From NCBI GenBank assembly GCA_016648135.1, contig JADDOH010001556.1, positions 182,138-246,137 on the forward strand: DNA of 64,000 bases, in the 5' to 3' direction. A model generated the notes under the pieces. It was not told where the DNA came from. It did no database searches and saw only the letters and a list, made by a program, of their open reading frames with translations. The position numbers and the translations under genes were made by a program. The DNA is from Agrypnia vestita. Lineage: Eukaryota; Arthropoda; Insecta; Trichoptera; Phryganeidae. Below, piece by piece: positions 28,360-61,339 of this stretch (within the stretch, counting starts at the first letter, position 1; each line of letters opens with the position of its first letter).

Positions 28360-28439
28360 GATAAATCAAAGTACTTTTTGACATCCGGAAAATTGAGACG
28401 TTGTGTTGTGTAACTTTCCCGGGTGCCCCTCGCTATAAG
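28360..28439 (+). promoter_or_regulatory. Gene A promoter: shared upstream module and TATA box
   Basis: The module starts GATAAATCAAAGTACTTTTT and continues with CCGGAAAATTGAG (28360-28403). Nearly the same sequence stands upstream of genes B and C. TATAAG is at 28434-28439, 53 bp before the ATG. The spacing from module to TATA is about 30 bp here. The module is presumably a binding site for a tissue-specific activator shared by the cluster (inference). Confidence 0.7.
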
Positions 28440-28491
28440 AGTGTTGGGAAACCATCAAGGGCCGCACACGCGTGGAATTTTTTTCGGCAAG

Positions 28492-28551
28492 ATGAGAGCG
28501 TCGGCGGTCTTCCTCGTCGGATTAGCTCTTTGTGGCGCATTGCACGCGCAG
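28492..28551 (+). CDS. Silk-like protein A, exon 1 (signal peptide)
   Basis: This 60-nt exon encodes MRASAVFLVGLALCGALHAQ, a classic secretory signal peptide with a basic n-region, a hydrophobic core and small residues before the likely cleavage site. It ends in a phase-0 donor CAG|GTGAGT. The start is set by the promoter spacing and by the identical 20-codon structure of exon 1 in genes B and C. It splices over a 4.5 kb transposon-rich intron to the body exon at 33033. Confidence 0.85.
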
Positions 28552-28924
28552 GTGAGTTGTGACGAAGTTTTTATTTCACCTGTGTCGTTATTCTGCCAAG
28601 CCAACAGGATCTCGTTTAAATAATCCAAAAATTTAACTGTGCTACCCGTTCGCTGTAATGTGAATATCTGTCGTGAAACTAGTGCTGCAATTGAGAAAAG
28701 AGTTCAATCTATTTTAGTAGTAGGTACTACTGGTCTTCGAATTGTGTTGTTAATTTAGCAGAGTGAGTTTACACACCCCTAAAATATTGTCCGTTGACGG
28801 GGTCCGTACGGATTATAATGATACGAGATATTATGGAAGTGTTGCATGTCCCAAACCATACACATGTTAGAATATATTGAGAAATATTGTGCCATAATTT
28901 TGTTGCTTTATATTAATTTATATA

Positions 28925-29600
28925 TTTACGAGCTGTTCGTACCCGGTTGCTCGGGTTAAGTTAAAAATAAGCTTGTGGAAGGAAACAAAGGTTCTATTGT
29001 TTGCAAAGGCTCTAAAAAACATGTTTCCATTTCATCTAGGCCGGGATGGATGGGATGTCCAAGGGGAAATGTGGCCTATGTTTTCCATTGGGTCTATGCA
29101 AAGTGTTGGTAAATTTTGTAAGGCGAAATGGGTATGGATTTGTACAGAGAATATACCAAGGTAAGAGGGTGGTTAAAAGGGAGGGGAAAATGTGACCCAT
29201 GTTTTCCGCCGAGTCCTAAAGAATAAGTATCACAACATTTGGGTGAGATCGGTCAAATGGTTTTGATCGATCTGACCATTCAGTCAGATTTGTATTGAAA
29301 ATATTGAGGACAGGAGATGGGGTAAAGTAAGAGAGGTTAAATATCGCCTGTGTTAACCGCCAGGTCCTTAAGAATAAGTATGCCAAATTTGGTTCAGATC
29401 GGTCGAACGGTACAGATTTGCATGGAAGATATACCAGTGGAGGTGTAGGAGTAAAGGGGGAGGAGGGAAATATTGCCTATGTTACCTGCCGGGTCTTAAT
29501 GAATAAGTATGTATGTAAAATTTGGTTCAGATCGGTCGAACGGTACAGATTTGCATGGAAAATATATCAGGTATGGTAGCGCATGAAAAATGAATAAACA
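28925..29600. repeat. Dispersed element with internal tandem units, in intron 1 of gene A
   Basis: It begins GTTCGTACCCGGTTGCTCGG, related to the start of the element at 63515. Inside it are about four diverged units of roughly 140-150 bp. Each contains a GGTTCAGATCGGTCGAACGG-like word followed by ACAGATTTGCATGGAAAATA. This class of arthropod repeat is common and non-coding; I cannot name the family with certainty. Confidence 0.6.
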
Positions 29601-30193
29601 AACAAACATTATAGATTTTTATGTTTAAGATATATAAGACCTACTGTAAGCTAATTGTACTATGCCTATACCCTTTGCAGACGTGCAAGAAATAAGTTGA
29701 CAAGGAAGAAATAAGGTACAGCAGCGCATAAAATACGAACAAACATTGATTTTTATATATAAGATTTAGGTATTAACTTTTTGCATAACTACTATTACAA
29801 TGGCGGTTTTATTGCTAGCTGGAAACATCTTCCTAATAATATTTGCCTCTCTCAAGAGATCGATTAAGTATTTTATTGGCGTGTCACGCTCATATTCAAA
29901 ACAAAATTTTTTAGTAATTTTGCCTTTAGATGATTCAGTGTACCCTTTGTTCTATGTTTCTAATTGTTTATTACCATAAATAACTGTTATCATAAAACAC
30001 ACAAAAAATAGTAGAAAAAAGAAAATATATGAACAAAGCCATATATCTATTTGAAACATCTTTGTACCTTATATAAGTGTTATTTGTTATTATTTTTCAT
30101 ATTTATAATTTTGAAATTGGTCGATATGTTAACAAATTTTTGCATTTTGTTATGTATCTGTATCAATACCTGTGCCTGTGAATTGCAGATAAT

Positions 30194-30234
30194 AAGATAC
30201 AATTCACACGCAAAGGGCATGTGAATTGTATCTT
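30194..30234. repeat. Perfect 15-bp inverted repeat
   Basis: AAGATACAATTCACA (30194-30208) and TGTGAATTGTATCTT (30220-30234) are exact reverse complements around an 11-nt loop. Isolated; function unknown. Confidence 0.8.
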
Positions 30235-31654
30235 ACGATTTGCATTCTGGACATCAGGCCAACAGTGGAACACTGAAGTAGGTTTCAATACCAAATAACA
30301 ATATTATCAGTACAATACCAAAGCTCCACGACATCGGGACGAGTAGGAGATGGACTGAGATAAGGAATGGTTAAACTAGATTTTGGGAAAGGTAAAATTA
30401 TTTTAGTCTGGTTTGAAGATAGTTAAAAAAAATAAAAAATAAAGCAGTTTCCTTGCTACACCGCCGATGACGCAAAAGCACTCGTGAGACGCGACGAGGA
30501 AACTGAACTAACCACTGTCACTGTCTGACTGTCTTTGGGGTGCGATATGAAAACAATTTAATCACAGAAAATAGGAATACATAAAAATGAACTCACAAGT
30601 AATTAACAATATATAACCAAAAGCAGAGAAATATAAGGAAAAGAAAATAACATAGCATAAATATAAGACAAGCAAAATAAAATAGAATATAAAAGATACA
30701 ACGAAATATGTAGATATACATCATGAAAAATTTAAAATGTAATAAAAAATAAAATGAAAATGTGTTTATACATAAAAATATAAATAACCTTTAAGAAAAT
30801 GCAAATACTCCCAATCGGAAAAAAAGAAAATAAAAGGAAATCACAAACACGCAAAGGACTCGCCAGTCCGGAAAATCACTACCGGCAGGAATCAAATCTC
30901 GAAACAAAAGGAAAAATACGTAAAATAAGGCAAAAAAATATCAAAATTTAAACCAAGTTAAACCAAAGACAAAAATGAAATAAAAAAATAAAAATAAAAA
31001 ACAGATTGGTTAGGGAACCGAGAGAAAAGTGAAATGAGCACAGCGGTTATCCTCCGAGGGGAGGCCCTCTGAGAATTTCCCAACGTGAGACCCACACTCG
31101 AATGAAAGCTCTAAAATGGGACGGAATGTTCACCCAAAGAATGAGGTTAAAGTTTTCAGCGGGACGCCCACCTCCCTTGAGTGGTGACCCCACTAAACAT
31201 AACCTTCCGTGCATCGCTAAGATGGCGCATCCTCTAAGGGTGCTTTCTTCTTCCTTTCTTCCACAGTCTAGACGACGGTTGAGATGCTGAAGATTACAGT
31301 ATTATGAATGGAGATGGATAGCTGAACGAAGTGGAAGGCCATTAGAAATTAGATTAGATTAGAAAGTTGAATTAAGATTTCAGGTACAGAGGTGAGTCAT
31401 TATTGAAAAGGACATTATACAGTTATGGCGCTGTCGGATTGTAAGTCAGTTGAGAATATTGCGAAAAGTTGTGATGAAACGGATACCAAATTTTTGAAGG
31501 CGTTGCAGTTATTTTACAATATTTTATTTTACAAAATATTAAATAATTAACTATAAATATTATAGACTTATTCTTTCTTGGACTTTCTTAGAAATGATGA
31601 AAAAAAAAACAGACTTATGAAGTTAAATAAAAAAAATTAAGCACTCTAGGTGAA

Positions 31655-33032: not shown

Positions 33033-36026
33033 ACCACATTAGAAGACGACAAAGATACAACTTTGCTTATTGATGGCGAAGCAGATGATAAATATAACGG
33101 CGATACAACTACAATAATTACTCCAGAAGATGAATATAATGGCGATAAAACAGACAAAACTCCAGGATTTACTACAGGAGATAAAAATTATGGCGATAAA
33201 ACAGATAAAACTAAAGGACTTTCCAAAAAAAAACCGAAGCTGAGGCATAACTTCTTCTTTATTAATACTGGTAAAGGAAGCGATGCAGGAAGTTCACCTA
33301 CACATGATGAACCTGTAGTGGTTACGATTGGATCAGGTGGAACATTAATAATTAGCACTAGTGGAGTACATAAAGGTGAAACTGGAGGAGATTTAAAACA
33401 AACAGGAAGCGCTGGAGGATACTTAGATTACACAGGTAACACTGGAGGATATTTAGACTACACAGGTAGCACGGGAGGAAATTTTGACTACACAGGTAGC
33501 ACGGGAGGAAATTTTGACTACACAGGTAGCAATGGAGGATATTCAGACTACACAGGAAGCAATGGAGGATATTTAGACTACACAAGTAGCAATGGAAGAT
33601 ATACAGATTATACAGATGGTACTGGAGGATACACAGATTACACAGGCAACACTGGAGGATATTTAGATTACACAGGTAATAAGGGAGGATATTTTGGCTA
33701 CACAAGTAGCAATGGAGGATATTTAGACTATACAGGAAGCAATGGCGGATATTTAGACAATACAGGTAACACTGGAGAAAATTTAGGCTACACAAGTAGC
33801 ACTGGAGGTTATACAGACTACACAGGTAGCACTGGGGAAAATTTAGACCACACAGGTAGCACTGGAGGATATACAGATTACACAGGCAGCACTGGAGGAT
33901 ATTTAGACTACACAAGTAGCACGGGAGGAAATTTTGACTACACAGGTAGCAATGGAGGATATGTAGACTACACAGGAAGCATTGGAGGATATTTAGAAAA
34001 CAAAGGTAGCACTGGTGGTTATTCAGATTACACAAGTAGCAATGGAGGCTGCAAAAGTAGCACTGGAAGATATGTAGACTGCACAAGTGGCAATGGAGAG
34101 TATTTTGACTACACAGGTACAGGTGGGGTAAATACAGACTACACAGATGGCACTGGTGTATATACAGGCTACACAGATAGCACTGGAGTATACACAGACT
34201 ACACAGATGGCACTGGTGTATATACAGACTACACAGATAGCACTGGAGTAAACACAGACTACACAGATGGCACTGGAGTAAACACAGACTACTCAGACAG
34301 CACTGGAGTAAACACAGACTACACAGATGGCACTGGAGTAAACACAGACTACTCAGACAGCACTGGAGTACACACAGACTACACGGATGGCACTGGTGTA
34401 TATACAGACTACACAGATAGCACAGGAGTAAACACAGACTACACAGATGGCACTGGTGTATATACAGACTACACAGATAGCACTGGAGTATACACAGACT
34501 ACACAGATGGCACTGGTGTATACACAGATTACACAGATGGCACTGGAGTAAACACAGACTACACAGGTGGCACTGGAGTAAACACAGACTACTCAGAAGG
34601 CACTGGAGTATACACAGACTACGCAGATGGCAGTGGTGTATATACAGACTACACAGATAGCACTGGAGTAAACACAGACTACACAGATGGCACTGGTGTA
34701 TACACAGATTACACAGATGGCACTGGAGTAAACACAGACTACACAGGTGGCATTGGAGTAAACACAGACTACTCAGAAGGCACTGGAGTATACACAGACT
34801 ACGCAGATGGCAGTGGTGTATATACAGACTACACAGATAGCACTGGAGTAAACATAGACTACACAGATGGCACTGGATTAAACACATACTGCACAGATGG
34901 TACTGGAGTAAACACAGACTACTCAGACAGCACTGGTGTATATACAGACTACACAGATAGCACTGGAGTAAACACAGACTACACAGATAGCACTGGTGTA
35001 TATACAGACTACACAGATAGCACTGGAGTATACACAGATAGCACTAGTGTATACACAGACTACACAGATGGCACTGGTGTATACACAGACTACACAGATG
35101 GCACTGGTGTATATACAGACTACACAGATAGCACTGGAGTAAACACATACTGCACAGATGGTACTGGAGTAAACACAGACTACTCAGACAGCACTGGTGT
35201 ATATACAGACTACACAGATAGCACTGGAGTAAACACAGACTACACAGATAGCACTGGAGTAAACACATACTGCACAGATGGTACTGGAGTAAACACAGAC
35301 TACACAGATGGCACTGGTGTATACACAGACGGCACTGGAGTATATACCGACTATACGGATGATACTGGAGTATATACGGACTACACAGATGGCACTGGAG
35401 TATATACGGACTACTCAGACAGCACTGGATTATGCACAGACTACACTGATGGTACTGGAGTAAACACAGACTACTCACACAGCACCGGTGTATACACAGA
35501 CTATACAGACGGCACTGGAGTACACACGGACTATACGGATAGTACTGGAGTATATACGGGCTACACGGTTGGCACTGGAGTATATACGGACTACATAGTC
35601 GGCACTGGAGTATATACGGACCACACAGATGGAACTGGAGTATATACAGACTACTTAGATGGCACTGGACTTTACACAGATTACACAGATGGCACTGGAG
35701 TATATACAGACTATACAGATGGCACTGGAGTATATACGGACTACACGGATGGCACCGGAGTATATCTAGACTACACAGGTGTCACTGGAGGATATACAGA
35801 CTACACAGGTCTAGAGTGGACAGGTCAACTTGGGGTTTGTTCAATTCCAAGTTGTTCTGTAGGATGTCCTGTTTCTGGAACATTTGTTCCTGGATGTCCT
35901 GGCAATGGAGGGGTCTCTAATGGATGTGGAGGAGATACAGGATGTGGAGGTCCAGTTCTTACTGGACCTCTTGTTTGTGTAGAAGTATTACGTTGTGTTG
36001 TTGTAAATCTCGAAACAAGTCCATAA
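33033..36026 (+). CDS. Silk-like protein A, exon 2: Gly/Tyr/Thr/Asp 10-residue repeat protein
   Basis: This single 2,994-nt exon, joined in phase 0 to the signal exon, gives a 1,017-residue secreted protein. After cleavage comes an acidic segment with DTTLLIDGEADD (DDT..DG motif), a Lys/Thr/Asp stretch, and RHNFFFINT at residues 91-99, also present in protein C. Residues about 146-950 are tandem 10-mers: first about 23 of the type GGYLDYTGST, then about 55 of the type GVYTDYTDGT / GVNTDYTDST. The C-terminus (about 955-1017) switches to a Cys-rich cap with eight cysteines (VCSIPSCSVGC, then PGC, NGC, TGC, VC, RC). The composition, Gly/Tyr/Thr/Asp-rich with no globular domain, suggests a silk, glue or other secreted structural protein. 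I do not recognise an orthologue. Confidence 0.85.
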   Translation, partial: TTLEDDKDTTLLIDGEADDKYNGDTTTIITPEDEYNGDKTDKTPGFTTGDKNYGDKTDKTKGLSKKKPKLRHNFFFINTGKGSDAGSSPTHDEPVVVTIGSGGTLIISTSGVHKGETGGDLKQTGSAGGYLDYTGNTGGYLDYTGSTGGNFDYTGSTGGNFDYTGSNGGYSDYTGSNGGYLDYTSSNGRYTDYTDGTGGYTDYTGNTGGYLDYTGNKGGYFGYTSSNGGYLDYTGSNGGYLDNTGNTGENLGYTSSTGGYTDYTGSTGENLDHTGSTGGYTDYTGSTGGYLDYTSSTGGNFDYTGSNGGYVDYTGSIGGYLENKGSTGGYSDYTSSNGGCKSSTGRYVDCTSGNGEYFDYTGTGGVNTDYTDGTGVYTGYTDSTGVYTDYTDGTGVYTDYTDSTGVNTDYTDGTGVNTDYSDSTGVNTDYTDGTGVNTDYSDSTGVHTDYTDGTGVYTDYTDSTGVNTDYTDGTGVYTDYTDSTGVYTDYTDGTGVYTDYTDGTGVNTDYTGGTGVNTDYSEGTGVYTDYADGSGVYTDYTDSTGVNTDYTDGTGVYTDYTDGTGVNTDYTGGIGVNTDYSEGTGVYTDYADGSGVYTDYTDSTGVNIDYTDGTGLNTYCTDGTGVNTDYSDSTGVYTDYTDSTGVNTDYTDSTGVYTDYTDSTGVYTDSTSVYTDYTDGTGVYTDYTDGTGVYTDYTDSTGVNTYCTDGTGVNTDYSDSTGVYTDYTDSTGVNTDYTDSTGVNTYCTDGTGVNTDYTDGTGVYTDGTGVYTDYTDDTGVYTDYTDGTGVYTDYSDSTGLCTDYTDGTGVNTDYSHSTGVYTDYTDGTGVHTDYTDSTGVYTGYTVGTGVYTDYIVGTGVYTDHTDGTGVYTDYLDGTGLYTDYTDGTGVYTDYTDGTGVYTDYTDGTGVYLDYTGVTGGYTDYTGLEWTGQLGVCSIPSCSVGCPVSGTFVPGCPGNGGVSNGCGGDTGCGGPVLTGPLVCVEVLRCVVVNLETSP
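33409..35820 (+). repeat. 30-bp tandem coding repeat array in gene A
   Basis: The units are 30 bp (10 codons). A higher-order duplication of 180 bp is visible: the stretch from 34501 and that from 34681 start identically and run in parallel for six units, including the rarer GVNTDYSEGT and GVYTDYADGS units. A second shared block with NTYCTDGTGVNTDYSDST occurs near 34880 and 35140. The two halves of the array use different unit types, so they expanded separately. Confidence 0.9.
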
Positions 36027-36183
36027 ACTTGGATTAAATAATAACATTTTTAAAACGCAACATTTTCTTGGTGAATTCGAAAATTAATTAATTTTTCATA
36101 GATTCCAGAAACAAACATTCTTTTGGATCGTCAACAATTGTATCGGAAATGAACTATTATAATTTGTAATTAAATACCTAAAC

Positions 36184-37265: not shown

Positions 37266-37329
37266 AATGTCTCGTCTCGCATTTCCGCTACAATGCGCAA
37301 GGTCTGCGTGCGCAACTTCCGTTACAATA

Positions 37330-41119: not shown

Positions 41120-41277
41120 ATTTTTAATATGTAAAATCCATCAATAATATATTTTTTTTATTATCACTGCAGTATCTTGAACAATATACAAATGATAGCA
41201 TTAAAAGAAAATTATTGTACATATGTGACCCAGATATTGTCGCTTCTTCTGTTATGCAGCGCCGATTTAAATTGAAC

Positions 41278-41354
41278 TGATAAATCAAAGTAGTTTTTGA
41301 CAGCCGGAAAATTAACTTGACCATAACTCTGCTGGAAATTGTTTTCTATGAAAG
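41278..41354 (+). promoter_or_regulatory. Gene B promoter: shared upstream module and weak TATA box
   Basis: The module TGATAAATCAAAGTAGTTTT with GCCGGAAAATTAA (41278-41319) matches genes A and C. The TATA position holds TATGAAAG (41347-41354), a weakened version of TATAAAAG in gene C. CATCAG, also found in gene C, sits 31 bp downstream of the TATA start and is the probable initiator. Confidence 0.7.
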
Positions 41355-41398: not shown

Positions 41399-41458
41399 AT
41401 GAAAGTGCTGACAGTCCTGGTTCTCGGACTCGCCATTTATGGTGTCAATTCAGCGAAG
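41399..41458 (+). CDS. Silk-like protein B, exon 1 (signal peptide)
   Basis: A 60-nt exon encoding MKVLTVLVLGLAIYGVNSAK, a secretory signal peptide, ending in the phase-0 donor AAG|GTGAGT. Its size, phase and donor are identical to genes A and C. It splices to 43602 across a 2.1 kb intron. Confidence 0.85.
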
Positions 41459-43601: not shown

Positions 43602-43821
43602 ATTCACTCTAAAGACGTAACGGCTAAAGAAGATGTAACGGCTAAAGAAGATGTAACGGCTAAAGAAGATGTAACGGCTAAAGAAGACGTAACGGCTAAA
43701 GAAGACGTAACGGCTAAAGAAGATGTAGCGACAGATGCCGTCATCGACGATCATTTGAAAGGAAAAATTGGAGGCGGTTCAAGTACAGTAGGACATGGCA
43801 AAAATAAAGAAAAAAAAACAG
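43602..43821 (+). CDS. Silk-like protein B, exon 2 (DVTAKE repeat)
   Basis: The acceptor GATTTCAG precedes ATT at 43602. The exon encodes IHSK, then six tandem copies of DVTAKE and a partial seventh (18-bp DNA repeat, 43614-43730), then an acidic and Lys/Gly-rich stretch ending GHGKNKEKKT. The donor ACAG|GTAAAG leaves one base (phase 1), which matches the exon at 46164. If unspliced, the frame would stop 12 codons later (43855-43857), giving a short alternative protein. The repeat is a highly charged, probably extended segment placed directly after signal cleavage. Confidence 0.7.
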
Positions 43822-45425: not shown

Positions 45426-46163
45426 TATTTTGAACTATTGCAAATAAAATAATGACTGCCAACATGATTTATTTCTTTCCTTACAGCTTATCGCATTTAT
45501 TTTTTTATTTTATTTAATTCGGTCATCCAACAGGGAAACACAATTGCTTGATAAGATGAAATACCAAAAAGTAGTTAAATGTTTCCCTCAATTAAAGGAT
45601 AACACAAATAGGACATAATCATAGATAAGTCAATTTGACAATGACAGATAAAACATCATTTAAACGATTGTTCCAAATTTAGCTTTAACACAGACATAAA
45701 GGGGCTCGTGATGTATATAATATACATGATAAACATGATCAGGGGGGGGACGAGTTTCTAGTATCTGCTTCACCATATGACGATATTCTTCATATTTAGT
45801 GTTAAAAATATCTATTGAATTTAAGAGGTAATTATAATCTGAGCGTATGCGTGGAATGGGAGAGGATTTCCTATTTTTGGTTTGATAAATTGGAAGGGAA
45901 AACAGGTACTTCTGTCTGGTAGGTCAGAATGGGACGTGGAAAGCTAGCAAGCTGGTGATTTCAGGAGAATCAATAAGGTTATGAATTATTTGGAAAAAAA
46001 AAGGATTGATCTGACAATATTCGCCTGTTTTCTAGTTTCCAATTTATGAAATTTTATTGCGTCCAAATAGTTAAAATTCAAATTAAATTTATCAATAGTT
46101 TGAGCTATGTGTATTGTAATATATGAAACATTTAATTTTCTTAAGCAAATAAATCAATTCCAG

Positions 46164-47590
46164 GTCTCAAATCTCATGAAGGAAATACAGGCGGAAGCAA
46201 AGAAAACAATGAAGGAATTAAAAAAAATCTTGACCTATTAAAAAAAAATCACAGTATAATTGCTGTGGCTGCCGATCAAGGAGTCTTTTTACGCACAAAT
46301 AAGGATGATGACAAGGAGTCGGAAGAAGTGTACGATGATCATTTTGGTAGCTTTGATGAACATTACGATGACGATTATGGCGATGAGCGATTTGGTTATG
46401 GGTTGAACACCGGTTTTACAGGTTTATTCAATGACAGAAATGTTAAAGTCACAACTCAAACGAAGACTCATGAAAGTGATGAAAATTTTAGTAAAAATAA
46501 ATTAAAAAAAGATAGTATAAAAAAAAATCATGATGGTCTAAAAAAACATAAATTCGATACCGGTAATACCGAGGGAGAGAGAGCCAATCAAAAAAGGCCT
46601 ACATGTACAAACAAGCACGAGGATAAAGAATATGAAGAATCTGAAGAAGAATACGACGAATATTTAGAAAGTTATGATGATGATTTTGCAGATCGATCTA
46701 GCTACGTATCGAATGACTTTACAGATTTATTCAATGATAGTGATATTAAAATCGTAGAAACGGATAAATTTGGAATCGGCAATACAGTGTACGGAAACAC
46801 AGGGGGAGTGTACAGGAGTGGAACTGGGGGAAGATACACTGGAGGCACCGGAAGAGGGTACAAAGGTGAAAGTGGGAATGGGTTCGCAGGTAAAAGTGGT
46901 ATAGGCAACGCTGGTATAACTGGCAGAGGTGATTACAGTGATGGCACCGAAAGCAGGTACACGGGAGGAAATGGAGGTGAGAACACGGGTGGAAATGGGG
47001 GAGGCACCACGAGTGGAACTGGCGGAGGTTACGCTGGTGGCACCGGGGGAGGATACATTGGTGGAACTGGGGGTGAGCGCATGGGTGAAAGTGGGGGAGG
47101 CACCACGGGTGTAACTGGCAGAGGTTACAATGGTGGCACCGGGGGAAGGTACACAGGAGGAACGATTGGAGGGTACACGGGTGGGGGAGGCGTTACAGGT
47201 GAAAATGGCGGAGGTTACACGGGTGGAACAGGGGGAGGATATACGGATGGAAGTGGTGAAGGGTACACCGGTGGAACTGGAGGAGGGAATAGAATTGGAA
47301 CTGGAAGAGGGAACAGGGGAAGAAATGGGAGAGTATTCATTAATGAGACTGGGGGAAGGTACACGCTTGGTTCTGGGGGAGGTTACACGGGTGGATCTGA
47401 GGGAAACTACACTGATGAAATTGTGGGAGGGTATACGGATGGCAACGGGGAAGAGTTCATTTATGAAACTAAGGAAGAGCGTGCTGGTGGAACTTTGGGA
47501 GGATATACGAGTGGAACTGGCGGATGGTACACAGATGGCTCTTATGACAATGATTCAATTGAACCGGGTAGGTGGAGGATATTTGAGTGA
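46164..47590 (+). CDS. Silk-like protein B, exon 3 (acidic modules and Gly/Thr/Tyr repeats)
   Basis: Joining the base left by exon 2 to GT at 46164 restores one open frame to TGA at 47588-47590, for a 568-residue protein. The first part is acidic and contains two diverged copies of one module: EEVYDDHFGSFDEHYDDD ending GLFNDRNVKV (near residue 147) and SEEEYDEYLESYDDDFADRS ending LFNDSDIKI (near 248). Lys-rich linkers lie between them. From about residue 305 to 545 it is a loose 10-residue repeat of the type GGYTGGTGGG. It has few cysteines and no Cys cap, unlike A and C. It is probably a secreted structural protein; its signal exon and promoter tie it to A and C. No canonical AATAAA was seen within 250 bases downstream. 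Confidence 0.8.
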
Positions 47591-49026: not shown

Positions 49027-49385
49027 CATGTTGATAAATCAATAAATTTTGGTTTTAAACAAAACAAACAAAGACTTTTCTTGTAAATTAATAATACATA
49101 ATGTTAAAATGTTATTTTGCTATTATTAAAGAAGCCATTAAAGTACTAATTGAATTCCAATAAAATATTGCAGCACTTGTAAAGCATATCGACATCACAC
49201 GTATTACTATTCTTCCATTTTTTAAAACTAAAAAATAAAAAATAATAATAATCTTCCACCATTTTAAAGCCAGATGGTGCTGGAATAAACATTGCCTTAT
49301 TTATTTTTTTTGCCACCAGACCTTGAATTATATAATAATATATTGTACATATATAATATATTGTAATGCCAATTATAATTGAATT

Positions 49386-49462
49386 GATAAGTCCAAGTAC
49401 TTTTTGAAAGCCGGAAAATTGAGAAGTTGCGTAATTTCGTTGGAGGGGTTTTTCTATAAAAG
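49386..49462 (+). promoter_or_regulatory. Gene C promoter: shared upstream module and TATA box
   Basis: The module GATAAGTCCAAGTACTTTTT with AGCCGGAAAATTGAG (49386-49424) matches genes A and B. TATAAAAG is at 49455-49462, 54 bp before the ATG. CATCAG lies 31 bp downstream of the TATA start, the same spacing as in gene B, and is the likely start site. Confidence 0.75.
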
Positions 49463-49508: not shown

Positions 49509-49568
49509 ATGAAGATATTAGTAGTTATACTACTCGGAGTCATCCTGAGTGGTGTCTATTCAATTAAG
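49509..49568 (+). CDS. Silk-like protein C, exon 1 (signal peptide)
   Basis: A 60-nt exon encoding MKILVVILLGVILSGVYSIK, a secretory signal peptide, with the phase-0 donor AAG|GTGAGT. It has the same length and phase as in genes A and B. It splices to 50852 across a 1.3 kb intron containing a mariner relic. Confidence 0.85.
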
Positions 49569-50851: not shown

Positions 50852-52549
50852 CCTGGTTTAAAAGACGAAAAAGACCTTGGTGGAGAAGAAAATTTAAAAG
50901 ATGACACGATCCTTATTCTAGATGGCGATTCAGAAGATGAAAAAGGCAATTTGGACATAGTTGACTCAGGGGGATTAAAAGAGAAGTCTGGAGGAAAGGC
51001 GTATGGAAATAAATATGATTATAATAATGGTGGAAGAGGTCTTGGTAATCATAAAAGTAATCTTGGTAGAGATGACAAAAAAATTGGCATCGTCCCCAAG
51101 GCCAGACATAACTTTTTCTTTATTAATACGCCAAACAAAGGTACTTATACAACAGGAGTTGAATCGAACGGAGAAGGTTATGACGCAAGTGACTGTAGTG
51201 CTGGTGATAAAAATGTTTTCATAACTGCGGATGGAGTGGTAACATTTGGAGGTGGTAAAAATTATCCGGGAGTATCAGAGGGAACAGGGGAAATAGATGT
51301 AAATACAGGAGGAAATGATTATTCAAAAGCGCCAAAATTTACCGTTGGATTTGATGGAGGATGTTCAAGAGGATATGATAAAGATTTCACTGGCAGATAT
51401 GAAGGAGGATGCACAGGTGGATACAATGGAGGAGTTACGAGTGGAGATGGTGGATATAACGGAGGCTCTTTTGGTGGATGTGATGGAAGATTCGCAAGTG
51501 GAAATGAAGTAGGCGTTGCGGGTGGAGGTGGTGGATATTATGAAGAATCTTTGGGTAGATATATTGGAGGATTTACAGTTGGATACGGAGGAGGAACTAA
51601 GGATGGAAATGGTGGATGTTACGGAGGATCATTAGATGGATATGATGAGGGATTCACAAGTGGAAATGAAGTAGGCGTTACGGGTGGAGGTGGGGGATAT
51701 TTTGAAGGATCTTTTGGTGGATATGATGGAGGATTCACAGGTGGAAATGAAGTTACGGGTGGAGGTGGTGGATATTATGGAGGATCTTTAGGTGGATATG
51801 ATGAAGGATTCACAGGTGGGTATGGAGGAGGAACTAGGGATGAAGATGGTGGATATTATGGAGGATCTGTAGGTGGATATGATGGAGGATTCACAAGTGG
51901 ATATGGTGCAAATAATGGAGGATCTTTAGTTGGATATGAAGGAAGAAGTGATGATGGAAAGGGTGAATATTATGAAGGATGTTTAGGTGAGTATGATGGA
52001 GGAATTAAGAGTGAAGACAGTGGATATAACGGAGCATCTTTGGATGAATTTGATGGAAAATTTACAGGTGGATGTGCTGGAGGAAATGCAGGTGGATGTG
52101 GTGGAGGAAATATATGTGGATGTGGGAAAGGATATACGTGTAGATGTGGGAGAGGATGTACGTGTGGATGTGGGGGAGGATGTACGTGTGGATGTTGTGG
52201 ATGTGGGAGAGGATGTACGTGTGGATGTTGTGGATGTGGGAGAGGATGTACATGTGGATGTTGTGGATGTGGGAGAGGATGTACGTGTGGATGTGGTGGA
52301 GGAAATATATGTGGATGTGGGAAAGGATATACGTGTAGATGTGGGAGAGGATGTACGTGTGGATGTGGGGGAGGATGTACGTGTGGATGTTGTGGATGTG
52401 GGAGAGGATGTACGTGTGGATGTTGTGGATGTGGGAGAGGATGTACATGTGGATGTTGTGGATGTGGGAGAGGATGTACGTGTGGATGTTGTGGATGTGG
52501 AAGAGGATGTACGTATGGATGTTGTGGATGTGGGAGAGGATGTACGTGA
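50852..52549 (+). CDS. Silk-like protein C, exon 2 (Gly/Tyr repeats and Cys-Gly domain)
   Basis: This exon joins the signal exon in phase 0 (acceptor TAATTTCAG) and runs to TGA at 52547-52549, giving 585 residues. The N-terminal part has KDDTILILDGDSED and, at residues 105-113, RHNFFFINT, both shared with protein A. Residues about 187-427 are Gly/Tyr-rich (GGYYGGSLGGYDGGFTGG type). From about 428 it becomes a Cys-Gly array (CGCGRGCTCGCCGCGRG type), where roughly every second residue is Cys; a 195-bp block is duplicated within it. The array could be heavily disulphide-linked or bind metal. The stop appears to be a recent substitution (TGT to TGA), because the same pattern continues beyond it. 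Probably a secreted structural protein; no orthologue recognised. Confidence 0.8.
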   Translation, partial: PGLKDEKDLGGEENLKDDTILILDGDSEDEKGNLDIVDSGGLKEKSGGKAYGNKYDYNNGGRGLGNHKSNLGRDDKKIGIVPKARHNFFFINTPNKGTYTTGVESNGEGYDASDCSAGDKNVFITADGVVTFGGGKNYPGVSEGTGEIDVNTGGNDYSKAPKFTVGFDGGCSRGYDKDFTGRYEGGCTGGYNGGVTSGDGGYNGGSFGGCDGRFASGNEVGVAGGGGGYYEESLGRYIGGFTVGYGGGTKDGNGGCYGGSLDGYDEGFTSGNEVGVTGGGGGYFEGSFGGYDGGFTGGNEVTGGGGGYYGGSLGGYDEGFTGGYGGGTRDEDGGYYGGSVGGYDGGFTSGYGANNGGSLVGYEGRSDDGKGEYYEGCLGEYDGGIKSEDSGYNGASLDEFDGKFTGGCAGGNAGGCGGGNICGCGKGYTCRCGRGCTCGCGGGCTCGCCGCGRGCTCGCCGCGRGCTCGCCGCGRGCTCGCGGGNICGCGKGYTCRCGRGCTCGCGGGCTCGCCGCGRGCTCGCCGCGRGCTCGCCGCGRGCTCGCCGCGRGCTYGCCGCGRGCT

Positions 52550-52986
52550 GGATATTGTGGAGGAAATACAGGTGGGGATATACGTGTGGATGTTGTGGAG
52601 GAAAAACAAGTGGATGTGGGGAAAGATATACATGTATAGAAACTACAGGAGGATGCGGTGCAGGAAATACAAGTGGATGCAGGGAAGGATCTACGTGTAG
52701 ATCTGATGAAGGAAATACAGGTGGATGTGGGAGAGGACGTATGTATGGATGTGGTGGAGAAAATACATGTGGGTGTGGAGGAGGATGTACATGTATAGGA
52801 AATACAAGAGGACGCGGTGCAAAAAATGAAAAAAAAAGTGGTGGATGAAATACACGTGGATGTGGAAAAGAATGTATATATGAAGGTTGTGTAAGAAATA
52901 TAGATAAATGTGGTGGAGGAAATACAGGTGAATGTGGGGGAGGAGTTTTACTCAGAAAGTTGTTATTAAACATTTTTGATGTATGA
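52550..52986 (+). pseudogene. Decayed C-terminal extension of gene C
   Basis: Downstream of the stop, the Cys-Gly coding pattern continues. About 12 codons (GYCGGNTGG) remain in the old frame, then one base is lost or gained and the pattern resumes in another frame (CGCCGGKTSGCGERYTC, then GNTGGCGRG and NTCGCGGGCTC). A TGA at 52846-52848 interrupts it, and it resumes in that same frame to a TGA at 52984-52986. Three lesions separate this tail from the current protein. AATAAG at about 52993 may serve as a polyadenylation signal. Confidence 0.65.
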
Positions 52987-53169
52987 AAATTAAATAAGTA
53001 AAATTTGAATATTCAAGTATCTTTCGAAATATTAATTAATCTGCAGAAAATATGCATTGTGATATTTAATTAACGATATAATGCGCATTTTTGAGAGTTG
53101 GTAGTAAATAATGAGGTTTTCGCGAGTAAAAGATGAAGGATTATTTTCTAGGGTAACCCGCTTTCTAGG

Positions 53170-53363: not shown

Positions 53364-53529
53364 ACAGGTATGATTATTTTAATTTATTTAGTATGTATTT
53401 ATGATATTATTCATGGTAATGGTATATCGGGACAGAAGATTGTGGCGCTCTATCTCTTCCTCTGCGAGAAAACAGCCTAATTAATTAGTTTATTACATGG
53501 ATTAATTAAATAATTCCTGTGTCTGGTTT

Positions 53530-54360
53530 CACGTTTTATAATAATAAGAAAAATACTTTGTTTATACCACTGTTTATTAATAACTCACGATACTTCAGGG
53601 CCATTGGTTCCTTCTTCAGAGTACATTGAAAACTAATATAAAAATTGCAAGTATAGGTACAGATAAAATTGTGAATATAAGGTGGGCGAGGATTTGTGTT
53701 GGGTAAGGGGGGGGGGGGGCGCTTGTTAGTGTCAAAAGAATGGTTTGTTTCCAACAGACGATTAGAGAATTCAGAATAGTGCTCCTTACCTGGACAAAAA
53801 CGGTTGAAATCATTAGAAATTACTTTAAAAACCCCCGATTACCAGATGATTAGAAAATTCAGAATAGTTGCTGTAGTTGTTAATATATAATATTGCCACA
53901 ATTTAACTTTACAATTACTGAAGAAGAACAAATTTATTATCCAAAATATAAAAAAAAAATCTTCAATACTTGCAAAATGACTTTGTGGTAACATTATTTG
54001 TACTAATAACAAGAAAATACTTTGAATAAACCACTGTTTATTGAATCATGTTGTTGACATTAACGAGAGTTTGCAAATTTTACATACAAATAACAAAGGA
54101 TAAATTAAAAATTGTAGACATAACAAAAAAATGTTAATAGCAAATTAAATTTTGTAAATAACCAATTCCTTTTTGCAAACAGTAACCTTTTAAATTTGTT
54201 TTCACATAAGTTCTTAAATAGTTTTTCTTTGTTTTTGTTAATATCTATACTTATAAATTTTTAGTATACCTACATGTATTCCGATAAAGAGAACATTGGC
54301 CCCGAAATATGTTGATAAGTCGATAAATAGTGGTTTATACAAAGTGATTTCTCGTAATTA
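53530..54360. repeat. Penelope-type terminal repeats with degenerate hammerhead cores, facing copies
   Basis: A minus-strand copy (53530-53650) has CTGAAGA at 53619-53613 and GAAG at 53596-53593. A plus-strand copy (54240-54360) has CCGATAA at 54281-54287 and GAAA at 54304-54307, followed by GATAAATAGTGGTTTATACA. A fragment of the same end (AAACCACTGTTTATTGAATC) lies inverted at about 54020. All have core substitutions. There is a run of 12 G at about 53708-53719. Confidence 0.6.
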
Positions 54361-54634
54361 ATTCAAAAATAAAACGTAAGGTAAACTGCAAATAAAAAAA
54401 ATGAGAGATCTTCAATGAAAAAAAATTAATTAAACTGTTTGAAAACGAAAGTACTAGGTGCTTACTGGGAAAACTCTGTGGACACACCTTTTATTATAAA
54501 CATACCAAGCTTGGCAATTATTTGTCGACATTCTGGTCGTATACTTGAAATAATTTCCTGTTCCGGTGACATGCCACCTGGTGACACATAATATCACACC
54601 ACTCTGGCGGCCAATATTTAAAATATTTCTAGGA

Positions 54635-54800
54635 GTCTCACAGAATCGAAGCTATTTGTGTGGTAATCGTGTATGAAAGTCTATATAAGGTGGCCCAGAG
54701 ATTTAGACCTGTACGAACTGACCTTTACACTATGCAACGTTCACCAATTCCACCATGAGAACATCTACACATTATTAAATTTTTGAAAGTTGTATCTAAA
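54635..54800. repeat. Foldback MITE family F, left-half copy
   Basis: AGGAGTCTCACAGAATCGAA, then GGTGGCCCAGAGATTTAG, then CCTTTACACTATGCAACG. This uninterrupted copy shows the junction that is split by a LINE at 41690-42235. Confidence 0.7.
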
Positions 54801-55184
54801 TCAGTAACTTTCAAATATTTTTAGGGATTATTCTGGAGACATCTATGGTCCTTCCCATGACATAGCTGGTAACGAAACCTCTATATTTTTGTATGTTAAA
54901 ATCTTCAAAAAACTGTTTGTAATATGTTTTCAATTCCTACAGTATTTTTTTGCTTTACTGTAATACTACTCTTTTTATTTCTTATACATATTTTAATGTA
55001 AAAGGTTATTTTTGTACCGTATATTAAAATAAATAATTGAACAAATAAATATTCTTTTTAATAAATGCATGTTACTCTTCCGAATTATTTACATATACAC
55101 AATAATATGCCTGAAAATTAATATTTAAAAAATTTGAACTTCTATAGACCAGTATATATTTTCAACAATACTTTTATATGTATG

Positions 55185-55430
55185 TTCTGAGAACACACTT
55201 GCTGGATTTTGTCTACAGAGGGGTAATTATTAATTAAGCTAAATTATAGAAGTCTCACAGAGACGAGTCTATTTATATAGGAAACGAGTATGTGGTGGCT
55301 ACCCTATAACGACTTCCATATACATTTACCGTACAAATAACTTTTGTCTCTTTGAGATTTCTATAATTTGTATTAATTTATAATTATCCCCCTGTGTTCA
55401 AAATCCAATAATTGTGTTCTAAGAACAGAT
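55185..55430. repeat. Foldback MITE family F, short full-length copy
   Basis: The outer ends are TTCTGAGAACACACTTGCTG and the mirror CAATAATTGTGTTCTAAGAA. The inner arms are TATAGAAGTCTCACAGAGAC and GTCTCTTTGAGATTTCTATA. With the middle deleted, this copy shows both termini of the family. Confidence 0.75.
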
Positions 55431-55549
55431 ATATAAAAATATTGTTTAAAATACTACCTATAAGTACAGTATACCCAGAACAGTAGTTTATCTCCTGCCT
55501 GTCGGCGAGTTATTAGCCTACTCTTGCGTTGACGCTAGGGTTATCACTT

Positions 55550-58500
55550 TATTTTTACTCCCTTTCTTTTAACTCGTAGCGTCTGAGATTCCGACGCATA
55601 AGGTAGACACTAAACCCGAAAATTTCTGTAATTAGTATACCTAGTTTCTGCACTTAAATTGCAAGAACGCTGATTAACACCAACGTAGACTTTTAAAAAC
55701 TCACAGTTTTTGCGATAATCAACACACCTTTTTAGTAAAGCACTACAAACATAAAAAAGGCATTTTTTTCAGGAAGCGCATTTTTTTTCTAAAGCGGCGG
55801 CTGCGAGCGCGAATGGCACCGAAGGCACGGCCCTTACTGCCGCCGCCTTGTGCCCCCATATGTGTGCGTCACAGTGCTTGCGTACACGGCGCCGAGCACG
55901 CACGCACACATTCTAATGGGTAGCGGCCAGTTTGTATGAAGACGTATTACTGTTCTTAATATACTGTGCTATAAGTTACGCAGTTAATATCTTTGCTATG
56001 TATAACATCGTACAGATTGCGTGCGGCTGTTTTTGGCAGAAAATCAAGCAAGAGTTAAGAATGGAAGAATTCTGTGATGTTTGACGTAATATCGAAACTT
56101 GTGCTAAACTGATTTTAAGCGTTCTATGTAGTAAAATAATTGTCAAATTACTTTAAGCGAATTTTGAATTAAATTGTTAGTAATTAATAGCATTCCTTTA
56201 TTACTTCCTTTATATTAACTCCTGGCGTCTGCTTGCTTACTTGCCGGCTTGCCATAAAAAAAAACTTTGGATCGATTTTTGACCCTTTTCCCGTGATCCA
56301 ATCGAGCTGAAACTTGACAAGTAGACTCGTGGCGATGATCAAGAAAATCTATCAAATTTTCGTTAAAAAAATAATAATTATAGTATAATTTCGGATTTTT
56401 AGAAATTATATTGGTTTTTTCAAATTGGAATCATTAGAAAAGTTTGATTGGCAACGGCGGCCCGATAACGTCGCGGAATATTTTCTAAATTTGAATTACT
56501 CCGTCGGTGTACATATAAGGTACTTCACTACGAATGTCGAAAATCTAAATTGACTGACAAATGTTTTTAGAATTTAATCTTCAAAGCATGAAGTGTCTTA
56601 TCAAAGCTCAAAACATCTGACATTTTAGAAATATATTAAATTACTGTAAGTTTAGTGTTATGTTATATGTTTTAATTCGTCTTTAATTGTTGTTATATTT
56701 TACAAAGAAAGGGAGTACAATAAAAACTTGGTTTTTATGGGTTAATTTTTTTTAAAATTTAAGATTTGAAGTATTATTTACACTAGCTAACTCTGAACTA
56801 GCTCTGTTACACCATATATATATATATTTCGGCCACCAGTTAAGGCTGTGAGAATAGCGCTATCTAGAGTAGCGAAGCGTCTTGATGACGTCAGAGATGG
56901 ACTTGTGATTGGACTTAATTATTAATTAAAAAAAACAAACAAACTTTGTGTAAACCACATTGATTAGTTTTAATGTAAACCGATTTTGATATATTTGATT
57001 TCAAAAGTTAATAATTGATGTGGTGTATTCAAATATTCTTAGTTTTTTAAATTAACTTAGTTATCTTTATGTTAATTGTTTATATTCTAAAGTAACATCG
57101 TTACAATGACAATAAGGTGACATTTTTTCAATAGGACCTTACATTTTTTTATGTTATACTAGCTGTGACACGTCAAAAATAAAGTAATTTATTTTAACAG
57201 GTGGAGACATCTAGAGTTGAGAAGCGTTTTGATAACGTGAGTGATGGACATCATTAAATAGAGAATTATGCTTTATTTGATTCTTAAACTTCATTATTAT
57301 TTGAGCCATCTGGTTAACGTTAGTGACGGACGTGGTTACAAACAATGTATAGATTTTGATTAATAATTAATACCAACGATATATGGAATGCACTTGTTAG
57401 TTATAATTTCCATTAATTTGAAATATTTAAAAAAATCTAAATGTTTAAAAAATAAAATAATTTAGAGTATTTTATTCAAAAAGAGTTAAGTCAATGTTTT
57501 CATTTTATTTAATAATAATTTTTCAAATCATACTAATTTTGAAAATGGAATGAGATCAACGTTCATAGAGATTTTGAAAACGAAAAGAGATCAGCCATTG
57601 GATGGGAAGTTACGGACGGACATTTGAAATTATCACTAACTAGCCGTATACCCGTGAAAAATCACGGAACATGTGTCGCGTCCTTGTTAAGCCCTAGTAT
57701 ATATTAAAATGATCTTTTTGACGGTCCACGGAGAGGCGGTGCTTCCAGCCGTGTATTTTGTTTTTTTTAGCCGTGAATTCGAATGAAATTACCGACGTTA
57801 AAGGAAGTTACGGACAGACAGACAGACAATGAAATTGTTATGTTTGATGGGGAACGTGATAGATAAGTTTATTGCTTTTGTTTAAAATGATTGATATCTC
57901 GTAATAACAATAATACTCAGTAGTGCCATGTTTGTTTATTTAAAATATTAAAATTGTACGGAGTAAATTTTATATAGTAGTATAGTCAAATTCTGACACA
58001 ATTATTTGATTAATCTGATATTTATATAGTATCATATTAGTATTGTATTTCATAAGTAATATTATAAATTTTGCTTGAAGAAATTTCATTTGAACTCAAA
58101 CTCAATAATGGAATTCAATTTTAATCACCTTAATCATCGTGCTTTGGTCACTGTTTTAATATATAGCGTTGAACGCTTCGTTAATTGTGATAAAATAATG
58201 TTTGTGTTGGAATCAATCCTGCAGTCACAACAATACAAAAAGAAAGTCGACATCAAATAGTTAATTAATCTAAGTAACACGATCTATTTCTATTTTCTAG
58301 GTTCTTGAGAAAATTTTTACTTTAAAAAGTATGGTTGATTCCAAAGTAAAAAAATGGAAGTTTCACTAATAACATAAATAAAGGTAACACGTGTAACACT
58401 AATAACATAAATAACATAAATAATTCTAAATTTGAATTACTCCGTCGGTATAATAGGTACATCACTACGAATTTCGAAAATTTACAAAACAATTGGTTCA

Positions 58501-59870
58501 CAGATGACAGGGGTGAAATTGGGTGTTTTGGGAAAAATTCAAATAATAATTTATTTCTTTTATATTTCTGCTTAGTTTTGAAGAATTCTACATTACTCAA
58601 ATCTGATTCTGACTAAATCATTTGACGCTGGAAATTCATAAGGTACGATATTGATGATAATTGAATCTATCAAAATCTTGACATCTCAAAACATCTGACA
58701 TTTTAGAAATATATTAAATCTTCCCCGTGATCCAATCGAGCTGAAACTTTGCAAGCAGACTCGTGGCAACGATAAAAATGATCTATAATTTTTCGTTAAA
58801 AAAATTAATAATTATAGTATAATTTTGGATTTCTAGAAATTTTAATGGTTTTTTAAAATTGGAAACCATACTTGATTGTTTGATTACTATCAACAGCAGC
58901 CTGACAAAGTCACGGAATATTTAAAATTTGAATTACTCCGTCGGTATAATAGGTACATCACCACGAATTTCGAAAATTTATGACAATTGGCTCACAGATG
59001 ACAGCAAAATTCGGTTTTTTGGGAAGAAATCAAATAATAATTTATTTCCTTCAGATTTATGCTTAGTTTTGAAGAATTCTACATTACTCAAATCTGATTC
59101 TGACAATTTTAAATCATTTTGACGCTGGAAATTCATAAGGTACGATATTTCTGATAATTGAATATCAAAATCTTGATTAAATTGACTGGCAAATGTTTTT
59201 AGAATTTAATCTTTAAAGCATGAAGTGTCTTATCAAAGCTTAAAACATCTGAAATTTTAGAAATATATTAAATTCCTGCACGTTTAGTGTTATGTTATAT
59301 GTTTTAATTCGTCTTTCATTGTTAAGATTTTCATAAGGAATGTAAGAGGAAATAAAACGAAAAGAAAATTCAAATGGAGATAAAGAGATAATTTTAGAGA
59401 TTTTTGACATAGATATTTTTCTAGACATACATTTTCAGTCAATTAATTATTTAATTACATGATAGTTAACTTAATTTAAAAAGAAAGGGAGTAAAATAAA
59501 AACTTGTTTTTTATGGGTTAGTTTTTTACTCCCTTTCTTTTAACTCGTAGCGTCTGCTTGCTTGTTGTCTGTCGAAAAAACTTGGATCGATTTTTAACCC
59601 TTTATCCGTGATTCAATCGAGCTGAAACTTTGCAGGCAGACTTGTGGCGACGATAAAAATGATCTAACAAATTTTCGTTTAAAAAAATTAATAATTGTAG
59701 TCTAATTTTGGATTTTTCGAAATTTTTTATTACTCCCTTTCGTAGCGTCGCCCGACTCAACGAACGCCAAACCTGTTTCAACTAGTAAATGAGAAAGAGA
59801 GTATAGTAAAAACTTGGTTTTTATGGGTTAGTTTTTTTAAGACTGGTTTTCATAAGAAGGGAGTTTGTCA
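55550..59870. repeat. Nested region of one dispersed element family (CTCCCTTTCTTT ends)
   Basis: The end word ACTCCCTTTCTTTTAACTCG with TAGCGTCTG recurs at 55557, 59529 and, diverged, 56212 and 59731. The mirror AAAGAAAGGGAG occurs at about 56704 and 59480. An internal module (GATCCAATCGAGCTGAAACT) appears at 56295, 58728 and 59611. A unit of about 496 bp starting TCCGTCGGTATAATAGGTAC is tandemly repeated at 58441 and 58937. A short GC-rich patch (55780-55930) and another element end (57650-57850) lie inside. I see no protein domains. Confidence 0.6.
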
Positions 59871-60013
59871 CTAAAACTAAATAGTAAACCAAATATTTAT
59901 ACCTATATTAAATCATGAAATAATAAATTGAAAATATATATTTATAAAAAAAAATGTTTAACTTTACTTTGTAATACTCACACACATTATGAGTTGTTAA
60001 ATTACAACTATAG

Positions 60014-60044
60014 TTTCGAGAGGAGCAGTCCCTCTCATCATCAG
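60014..60044 (-). ncRNA. Hammerhead-like ribozyme core, Penelope element 2
   Basis: On the minus strand CTGATGA (60044-60038) is followed by T, the perfect six-pair stem GAGAGG/CCTCTC around GACTGCT, then GAAAC. This is the cleanest core in the window. The one extra base between CTGATGA and stem II is shared with the other copies. Confidence 0.6.
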
Positions 60045-60097
60045 GTATAGATAATAACTAACTTTAAATACAAAATTTATCAATCTATTTGGGTAGG

Positions 60098-60679
60098 TCA
60101 GGGGGGCGCGCGGTGGGGAAGGGTATTTTTTTCGCCGAACAGCTCTAGGAGTGGTGAAGTGAACTGAAATGTGATATTATTTATTAATGTGTTTCTAGAA
60201 TTTAAATTTTTGAGGATTTCAACGGTTTCCAAACTATTCATTATCCATCCTCTATAAGGAACCGAGTGAAATAATTTTAATTTATGACTATCGAAAGAAT
60301 GGTTAGTGTTAATTATATGATTGGCAAATTCGGAGAAATTGTTATTTTTTAAACAGCGGCGATGTTCTTTTATACGTGTATTTAAATTTCTAGTGATTTG
60401 GCCTATATACTTTTTGTCACAGTCTCCGCAAGTTATTTCATATACTCCACTTTTTTCTTACATATCTATTTTTGTTTTTGAATTTAGAAGAATTTTACCA
60501 ATATTATTATTTATGTAATAAGCTGGTCTAATGTGAGTAGGGAACCAATTTGTAATTTTATTAGAAATCGGACCATCATAAAGAATTTTTCGCCAAAATG
60601 TATTATCGGTGGTTTTAATATTTTTGCCCGAGAATAAATATGTTTGGATAAGCTTATTATTAATTTTTGATTTCAACAT
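60098..60679 (-). pseudogene. Reverse-transcriptase end and GIY-YIG domain of Penelope element 2
   Basis: A single frame with one in-frame TAA (60460-60458) runs from 60679 to TGA at 60100-60098. Before the TAA, WFPTHIRPAYYINNNIGKIL is the end of the reverse transcriptase. After it, KSGVYEITCGDCDKKYIGQ and TRIKEHRR form the GIY-YIG domain with its C-x2-C insertion, followed by F-A-N-H-I-I and N-S-R-N...FTSPLLE at the end. Apart from that single stop, this stretch is well preserved. Confidence 0.8.
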
Positions 60680-60799
60680 TCTATCTGTTAACGCGAAATT
60701 ACAAAGTAAAGTAAAACATTTTTAAAATTATAATGTTGCACCACGAAGTATCTGCCAAATCTTTCAATGATATTTTTTTCCTTTATGTTCACTGAAAAG

Positions 60800-60805
60800 T
60801 TTATT
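60800..60805 (-). terminator. Polyadenylation signal of gene D
   Basis: AATAAA on the minus strand, 39 bases after the stop codon of gene D. Confidence 0.6.
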
Positions 60806-60844
60806 ATTTTTTAGAAGCACTTGAGTATGTAAATCCTGGATAAT

Positions 60845-61339
60845 CTAAACCTCTCCATATGTCCCTTCTTCATACTCATACTGAATATTGTCATTCAAGT
60901 TTCCATATTGATCGTCGTAGTCGTCGCTGTTGGTGTAACTATTTCCGTGTCTGAGTGAAATGCCTCCAATACCGATGCCCGCGCCAAGAGACGCGGTAAT
61001 CCCCAGCGATCCCACAATACCTCCAGCGGCTCCAATGCCTCCACCGAGAAGTCCACCGCCTCCAAGAAGTCCGCCTCCAATACCTCCGACGGCTCCAATA
61101 CTTCCAGTTATTCCGAGAGATGCGGTAATTCCAGCGGCGCCCCCAATACCTCCTATGGCTAAGGATCTTTGCTTGAATAAATCCTCTCCTTCAGTCTGGT
61201 CTTCGTCGTAGTCTGCGAAACCTTCATATTCTCCATAACCGCCATCGTCACCAAAGGTTTGCAAATTATATTCATATTCATGTCCATCGAAAACAGTGTC
61301 GTCTTGCACCGTGAACGAATCGTCGCCTGCTCTTACAAC
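60845..61339 (-). CDS. Silk-like protein D, body exon (Gly-rich core with acidic ends)
   Basis: The minus-strand exon starts at a T-rich acceptor (TTTTTTAG|GTT, AG at 61341-61340) in phase 0, like the body exons of A and C, and ends in TAG at 60847-60845 (164 codons). The sequence opens VVRAGDDSFTVQDDTVFDG, carrying the DDT..DG motif of A and C, then Tyr/Glu/Asp-rich residues. Residues about 58-133 are a Gly/Ile/Leu/Ala core (AAGITASLGITGSIG, GGGLLGGGGLLGGG). The tail is again acidic and Tyr-rich. No ATG and no signal peptide precede it here, so a signal exon is expected beyond 61340; no copy of the shared promoter was found up to 64000. It is short for the cluster. Assignment to the family is inferred from phase, location and motif. 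Confidence 0.75.
   Translation of the reverse strand, partial: VVRAGDDSFTVQDDTVFDGHEYEYNLQTFGDDGGYGEYEGFADYDEDQTEGEDLFKQRSLAIGGIGGAAGITASLGITGSIGAVGGIGGGLLGGGGLLGGGIGAAGGIVGSLGITASLGAGIGIGGISLRHGNSYTNSDDYDDQYGNLNDNIQYEYEEGTYGEV

Follow-up and report, generated by a model that had tools for sequence, protein, structure and literature searches.

We identified a cluster of four genes, here named A to D, that are predicted to encode repetitive secreted proteins in a 64,000-nucleotide stretch of DNA from the caddisfly Agrypnia vestita. This stretch (the window) covers positions 182,138 to 246,137 of contig JADDOH010001556.1 (C1463) in assembly GCA_016648135.1, which comprises 1,321,690,220 bases in 19,947 contigs, and its end is the right end of the contig. 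Coordinates below are window positions unless another contig is named. The genes are marked by a conserved 5' cassette consisting of an element of about 46 nucleotides, a TATA-like box, a signal exon and a GTGAG donor, and this cassette occurs at seven loci in the genome (A to D, and F, G and H on another contig). Six of the protein bodies behind it could be seen, and these fall into three types: A and C, B alone, and D, F and H.

Genes A, B and C each begin with a 60-nucleotide exon that encodes a signal peptide of 20 codons and ends in phase 0 at a GTGAGT donor. These exons lie on the plus strand at 28492-28551 in A (CAG/GTGAGT, MRASAVFLVGLALCGALHAQ), 41399-41458 in B (AAG/GTGAGT, MKVLTVLVLGLAIYGVNSAK) and 49509-49568 in C (AAG/GTGAGT, MKILVVILLGVILSGVYSIK). 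Hydrophobic exons of this form (ATG, 60 nucleotides, GTGAGT) occur three times in the window, all on the plus strand, and in none of 100 first-order Markov shuffles, the length of 60 nucleotides having been chosen for this test after the finding was seen. With any length from 45 to 90 nucleotides allowed, the window contains four candidates and the 100 shuffles a mean of 0.5 and a maximum of 3; the fourth candidate is a 62-nucleotide exon at 30658 on the minus strand that lacks the family promoter. The three signal exons, which a first-pass annotation of this DNA had described, are thereby borne out. The same annotation gave exactly 20 codons, and as a rule for the family this fails: exon 1 has 57 nucleotides in F, H and the copy of D described below, 60 in A, B and C, and 63 in G, or 19 to 21 codons across the seven loci, in each case with GTGAG next (for the genome-wide loci only lengths divisible by three were considered). 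The hydrophobic core and the likely cleavage region, as judged by eye, fall inside exon 1 at all seven loci. Its phase 0 is supported by the bodies of A, C, D, F and H and by exon 2 of B, with G excepted.

The conserved promoter element is found on the plus strand at 28351-28396 in A, 41270-41315 in B and 49377-49422 in C, where it begins 141, 129 and 132 nucleotides before the ATG, respectively; 129 to 141 nucleotides is also the range in the five genes measured. It is followed by a TATA-like sequence at 28433-28441 (+) in A (CTATAAGAG, 59 nucleotides before the ATG), 41346-41354 (+) in B (CTATGAAAG, 53 nucleotides) and 49454-49462 (+) in C (CTATAAAAG, 55 nucleotides). Homology among the three genes spans the element, exon 1 and the start of the intron, and between B and C it extends over 225 nucleotides at 70% identity. 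In a seven-way promoter alignment, CCGGAAAATT is invariant at all seven loci. We presume the CCGGAA core to be akin to an ETS-type site and the sequence ATCAAAG to a TCF-type site. Profiles of the promoter match the window only at A, B and C.

The body of A is a single exon at 33033-36026 (+) encoding 997 amino acids. It is acidic (isoelectric point 4.05), rich in Thr, Gly, Asp and Tyr, and has a Cys-bearing C-terminus. Most of it is a tandem array of 30-bp repeats at 33381-35810 (+), for which Tandem Repeats Finder (TRF) reports 81.9 units. Among 78 extracted units, 74 of the spacings between successive starts measure 30 nucleotides and three measure 51; the extraction steps by three and is blind to indels of other sizes, and it is the open frame over 997 codons that speaks to these instead. 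The ratio of nonsynonymous to synonymous differences (pN/pS) among the repeats is 0.60 in the coding frame, the lowest of the six frames (0.71-1.08 in the others). The body of C, also a single exon (50852-52549, +; 565 amino acids), consists of Gly/Tyr arrays followed by Cys-Gly arrays, and Gly and Cys account for 32% and 11% of its precursor, respectively. The mature proteins contain 65 Cys in C and 14 in A. Both bodies, like that of D, follow a normal acceptor and begin in phase 0. The N-termini of A and C are related, with an alignment score of 101 against a highest score of 77 among 500 shuffles, and share the motif RHNFFFINT (33243-33269 in A and 51104-51130 in C, both +) in a non-repeat segment. 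A literature text search found no mention of HNFFFINT. An AlphaFold model of the A/C N-terminus, made from only two input sequences, shows no confident structure (mean predicted local distance difference test score, pLDDT, 37.7), and this region is probably disordered.

Gene B differs in having a middle exon. Exon 2 (43602-43821, +) encodes six DVTAKE units and ends in phase 1 at a CAG/GTAAAG donor, so that exon 3 (46164-47590, +) stays in frame whichever of its two acceptors is used, the alternative one giving a start at 46146 in the same phase. A direct join of exons 1 and 3 meets a stop after 25 codons, so B needs the middle exon and has three exons in total. The first-pass annotation had given each signal exon a separate body exon, and the middle exon of B had gone unnoticed. 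The DVTAKE units are encoded by an 18-bp array at 43612-43727 (+) with 96% matches, which is a recent expansion. Exon 3 contains Gly/Thr repeats and a duplicated acidic module of about 100 amino acids at 46166-46777 (+), whose copies (46166-46462 and 46463-46777) align with a score of 130, the highest of 1000 shuffles being 71.

Gene D is represented in the window by its body exon alone (60845-61339, minus strand), a phase-0 exon encoding a Gly-rich protein of 164 amino acids with acidic ends. Because D is on the minus strand and the contig stops where the window does, its 5' part is cut off, and exon 1, absent from the window, lies beyond the contig end. However, the element and a TATA-like box are present on a second contig, C17132, along with a 57-nucleotide signal exon (MKFLAAFIVVALCGETFAG) that ends at a GTGAGA donor; the body, 4.45 kb downstream of the ATG, is identical to that of D at 158 of 164 residues. 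Over the stretch that was compared, C17132 is colinear with 53397-64000 of the window, and the four longest matches are 91-97% identical; we read it as a second haplotype of the D locus or a recent copy. The position of D on the opposite strand, as annotated initially, is confirmed, and its membership in the family, which the first-pass annotation had no means of establishing, is shown by the exon 1, donor and family promoter of C17132. Several stretches are missing or extra between the window and C17132, perhaps from transposon activity between haplotypes. Directly downstream of D, an open reading frame (ORF) at 60101-60457 (-) has a GIY-YIG domain (22.9 bits, cut-off 22.6) and probably belongs to a Penelope-like element; C17132 also contains a counterpart of the adjoining ORF at 60461-60721.

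Four promoter queries, run against the whole genome at the DNA level, gave 3, 4, 10 and 4 matches. The A promoter found only A, B and C, and the C promoter recovered itself and A and revealed two new places (E 6.5e-6 each), the D copy on C17132 and F on C5832. The promoter of the D copy gave ten matches, namely A, B, C, C17132, F, H (C5832:9257), G (C5832:46628) and three others on C14327 and C6442, and every one of them has a signal exon, so that the element was never met alone; weaker elements were possibly missed. The exon-1 peptides of the last three differ by one or two residues from those of F, G and H, and the copy of G is 99% identical, which makes each of them a probable second haplotype of its counterpart. 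Within C5832:46482-53309 (G000), G on the minus strand and F on the plus strand form a divergent pair, with cassettes about 6.4 kb apart, and a mirror image of the pair lies on C14327. F has a 57-nucleotide signal exon, a 456-nucleotide intron and a body of 234 amino acids. The bodies of D, F and H share an N-terminus that starts with VV and contains TVQDD, and each pair scores above all 1000 shuffles. A protein query with the N-terminus of A recovered C only at an E-value of 8.15 in the genome and missed B, D, F, G and H altogether. A further match to this query on C7391 (E 5.85) contains three stops and was taken as chance. The proposal of a duplicated family that keeps its promoter and secretion exon is well supported and applies more widely than first described; the extracellular structural role assigned to it is one that we infer from the signal peptides, the acidic low-complexity repeats, the low-confidence N-terminal model of A and C and the silk-producing lineage of the animal.

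Searches for homologues of these proteins were negative. No homologue of the N-terminus of C was found in a large protein database (786 candidates scored), and none with an alignment of A and C, where scoring was restricted to the 7993 candidates with the most words in common. As a control, a fragment of a host gene from the same window (the zinc-finger gene described below) likewise gave no match among two candidates; the database therefore apparently lacks coverage of this animal group, and the failure to find homologues in it is uninformative. Pfam yielded no family above cut-off for the bodies of A to D or the N-terminal parts of A, B and C, and only sub-threshold matches to the LED repeat in the exon 2 region of B (16 bits, cut-off 59) and to a poxvirus family in exon 3 of B. 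In particular, the fibroin light chain family (PF05849) has no match in the bodies of A, C and D or exon 3 of B, and a PDB sequence search gave no match. The absence of Pfam domains from the bodies scanned and of confident structure from the N-terminus is as expected of low-complexity matrix proteins.

Several other features of the window and the host genome were identified. Two exons at 2408-4205 (+) resemble those of a gene for a CCCH zinc-finger protein, which we take to be ZMAT5-like. A 167-codon ORF at 26979-27479 (-) has no Pfam match above cut-off and presumably resembles the tail of a LINE reverse transcriptase. A GC island (51.5% GC) occupies 19001-20000, where most 1-kb steps of the window have about 30%. 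Scans of the window for Rfam families and tRNAs gave no match. Upstream of the window, promoter profiles found no cassette in C1463:1-180000 (18 slices of 10 kb) or in an overlapping 10 kb reaching to 182137 (best E 0.29), and the 18 slices hold no ORF of at least 90 amino acids with 17% Gly, although matches spanning slice borders would escape such a scan. Elsewhere in the genome, a profile search detected an L-fibroin exon (PF05849; 43.3 bits, cut-off 27), for which none of 14 control genomes gave a match. At this place (L004, C18239:81702-84905) an adjoining fibroin light chain exon was also recognized by eye, and we regard the locus as a lineage marker; L-fibroin is described from Lepidoptera and Trichoptera in the parts of the literature consulted (PMC11092239, PMC11906653). 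Fibroin P25 gave no match in the host genome search, a miss that does not prove absence. The assembly size of 1.32 Gb also speaks for a caddisfly, two limnephilid genomes being given as 728 Mb and 1.63 Gb (PMC13045387).

We propose that A to D and F to H form a family of secreted low-complexity proteins joined by the 5' cassette, and that they are co-regulated structural or adhesive proteins, most likely products of the silk gland, with a layout like that of caddisfly silk genes (probability roughly 0.6). The shared promoter suggests one expression programme and would give co-expression in one secretory gland. The likeliest candidate is the larval silk gland, since the silk genes of this lineage have nearly this layout. 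The signal peptides are predicted to send the proteins to the secretory lumen, where Gly/Tyr repeats, the acidic Thr-rich repeats of A and the Cys-Gly repeats of C may allow them to become a coat, glue or matrix. The members differ in chemistry: A has Thr/Asp/Tyr repeats, C has Cys-Gly repeats, and D, F and H combine acidic parts with Gly-rich cores. A mixture of them could provide cross-links, hydration and adhesion. An intron placed right after the signal peptide would let the repeat bodies lengthen, shrink and diverge while transcription and secretion stay untouched.

Some observations weigh against this proposal. The silk gland as the site of expression is what we infer from gene layout and promoter. 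The composition of the bodies appears unlike that of the Ser/Thr/Ala-rich cadhesins and the Ser-Ala/Ser-Gly pseudofibroins. Ser and Thr make up 288 of 997 residues of the mature part in A, 91 of 548 in B, 62 of 565 in C and 18 of 164 in D, and are high only in A. For G, no body was found within the roughly 4.4 kb that were read from its ATG. The A and C promoter queries each missed loci, which makes seven a lower bound. Finally, the array of C is cut by its TGA, beyond which Cys-Gly codons run on in another frame (52547-52987, +) to a second TGA at 52846-52848, and the 3' end of C may be recently truncated, decaying or polymorphic.

Other secreted materials could be built from such proteins. 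Moth high-cysteine chorion proteins have Cys-Gly arms, and the Cys-Gly repeats of C and the Cys tail of A, with the many Cys residues of both mature proteins, could cross-link an egg covering or an egg-mass jelly made in the ovary or accessory glands. We consider this improbable. At E<=1 no Pfam family, chorion included, matches the bodies of A, C or D, and exon 3 of B has only its poxvirus match. More doubtful still is an origin in the cuticle or peritrophic matrix. Insect cuticle commonly contains secreted proteins that are rich in Gly and Tyr and have a short signal exon, but neither a chorion nor a chitin-binding or cuticular Pfam domain rises above cut-off in the bodies of A, C and D, exon 3 of B or the N-terminal parts of A, B and C.

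The origin of the family can likewise be read in more than one way. According to the first-pass annotation the bodies share almost no repeat sequence, which needs correcting for the related N-termini of A and C. One of 500 shuffles reached the score of A against B, which is marginal, whereas B-C, A-D, C-D and B-D are at chance; among eight between-type comparisons (these five and C-F, A-F and B-F, with H left aside for A, B and C), seven were reached by at least 9% of shuffles. Such results would suit exon shuffling, in which repetitive ORFs of unrelated sequence were each provided with a copy of the promoter and signal exon, in place of gene duplication and divergence. However, the bodies are related within types (A-C, D-F-H), the comparison of A with B is suggestive, and similarity between low-complexity bodies fades so fast that divergence suffices; capture is an unlikely origin that nevertheless retains some weight. 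Slightly less weight goes to its broader form, a mobile or repeatedly copied cassette that seeds new secreted proteins from ORFs of independent origin under a gland-specific promoter. It is very improbable that seven loci is an overcount of fewer genes seen on contigs of different haplotypes. C17132, C14327 and C6442 do look like second haplotypes, but they are already excluded from the count, A, B and C lie apart on C1463, as do F, G and H on C5832, and the sequence of D differs from every one of them.

Within one genome and over several body types, a conserved control-and-export part of the family can be set cleanly against freely changing, material-forming parts. The shared cassette illustrates a way in which a secreted material could alter its protein composition under a single retained control switch, and were capture the true origin, one glandular programme could recruit new structural proteins without whole-gene duplication. 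The cassette loci let one ask whether a short promoter element defines the material programme of a gland, and whether new structural proteins arise by divergence or by capture. The promoter is also a search handle for members that escape a protein query: a single promoter query, that of the copy of D, found all seven loci.

The layout itself has precedents. In the portions of the literature available to us, caddisfly and moth silk genes (FibH, Pfib and Caz) combine a short signal exon with a long repetitive exon, and several are clustered (PMC11092239, PMC9432349, PMC11906653, PMC9684489). A, C, D (through C17132), F and H fit this plan, and B has its extra middle exon. The cadhesins (Caz) of Limnephilus lunatus are clustered, have heterogeneous bodies and mostly consist of two exons, a short signal exon and a long, often repetitive one. 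As described, they are typically rich in Ser or Thr, which would set them apart from the Gly-rich, mostly acidic bodies here, of which only A is Thr-rich, and the passages seen mention no shared promoter element (PMC11092239). The pseudofibroins (Pfib) of Plectrocnemia conspersa also have a very short exon 1 and a long repetitive exon 2, and three are reported as raised mainly in the anterior silk gland (PMC9432349, in part). FibH shares the signal exon, the repetitive exon and the Gly-rich composition; however, the sizes given in these sources, 486 kDa in Yponomeuta and 997 kDa with conserved ends in L. lunatus, contrast with 16.5-104 kDa predicted for A to D, none of which reaches the hundreds of kDa of a FibH-like protein (PMC9684489, PMC11092239). 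Exon 1 of Yponomeuta FibH is described as encoding ten residues of the signal peptide, whereas here exon 1 holds all of it (PMC9684489). The Drosophila salivary glue (Sgs) genes, in the account consulted, resemble this family in their signal peptides, fast-changing repeats and clustering, and the relatedness of some members was inferred from a common intron position; they differ in a phase-1 intron inside the signal peptide, in Pro/Thr/Ser repeats and in belonging to another insect order (PMC6352337). The initial statement that this is not a described family agrees with our searches, whose database limits make the absence a weak one, and does not extend to the layout, which has been described for silk genes. 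As far as the literature text and database searches go, and with Caz and Pfib compared by description rather than sequence, so that members may have other names, what is new here is a promoter element that marks the family, a complete signal peptide in exon 1, and unrelated Gly-rich bodies in place of Ser/Ala-rich ones.

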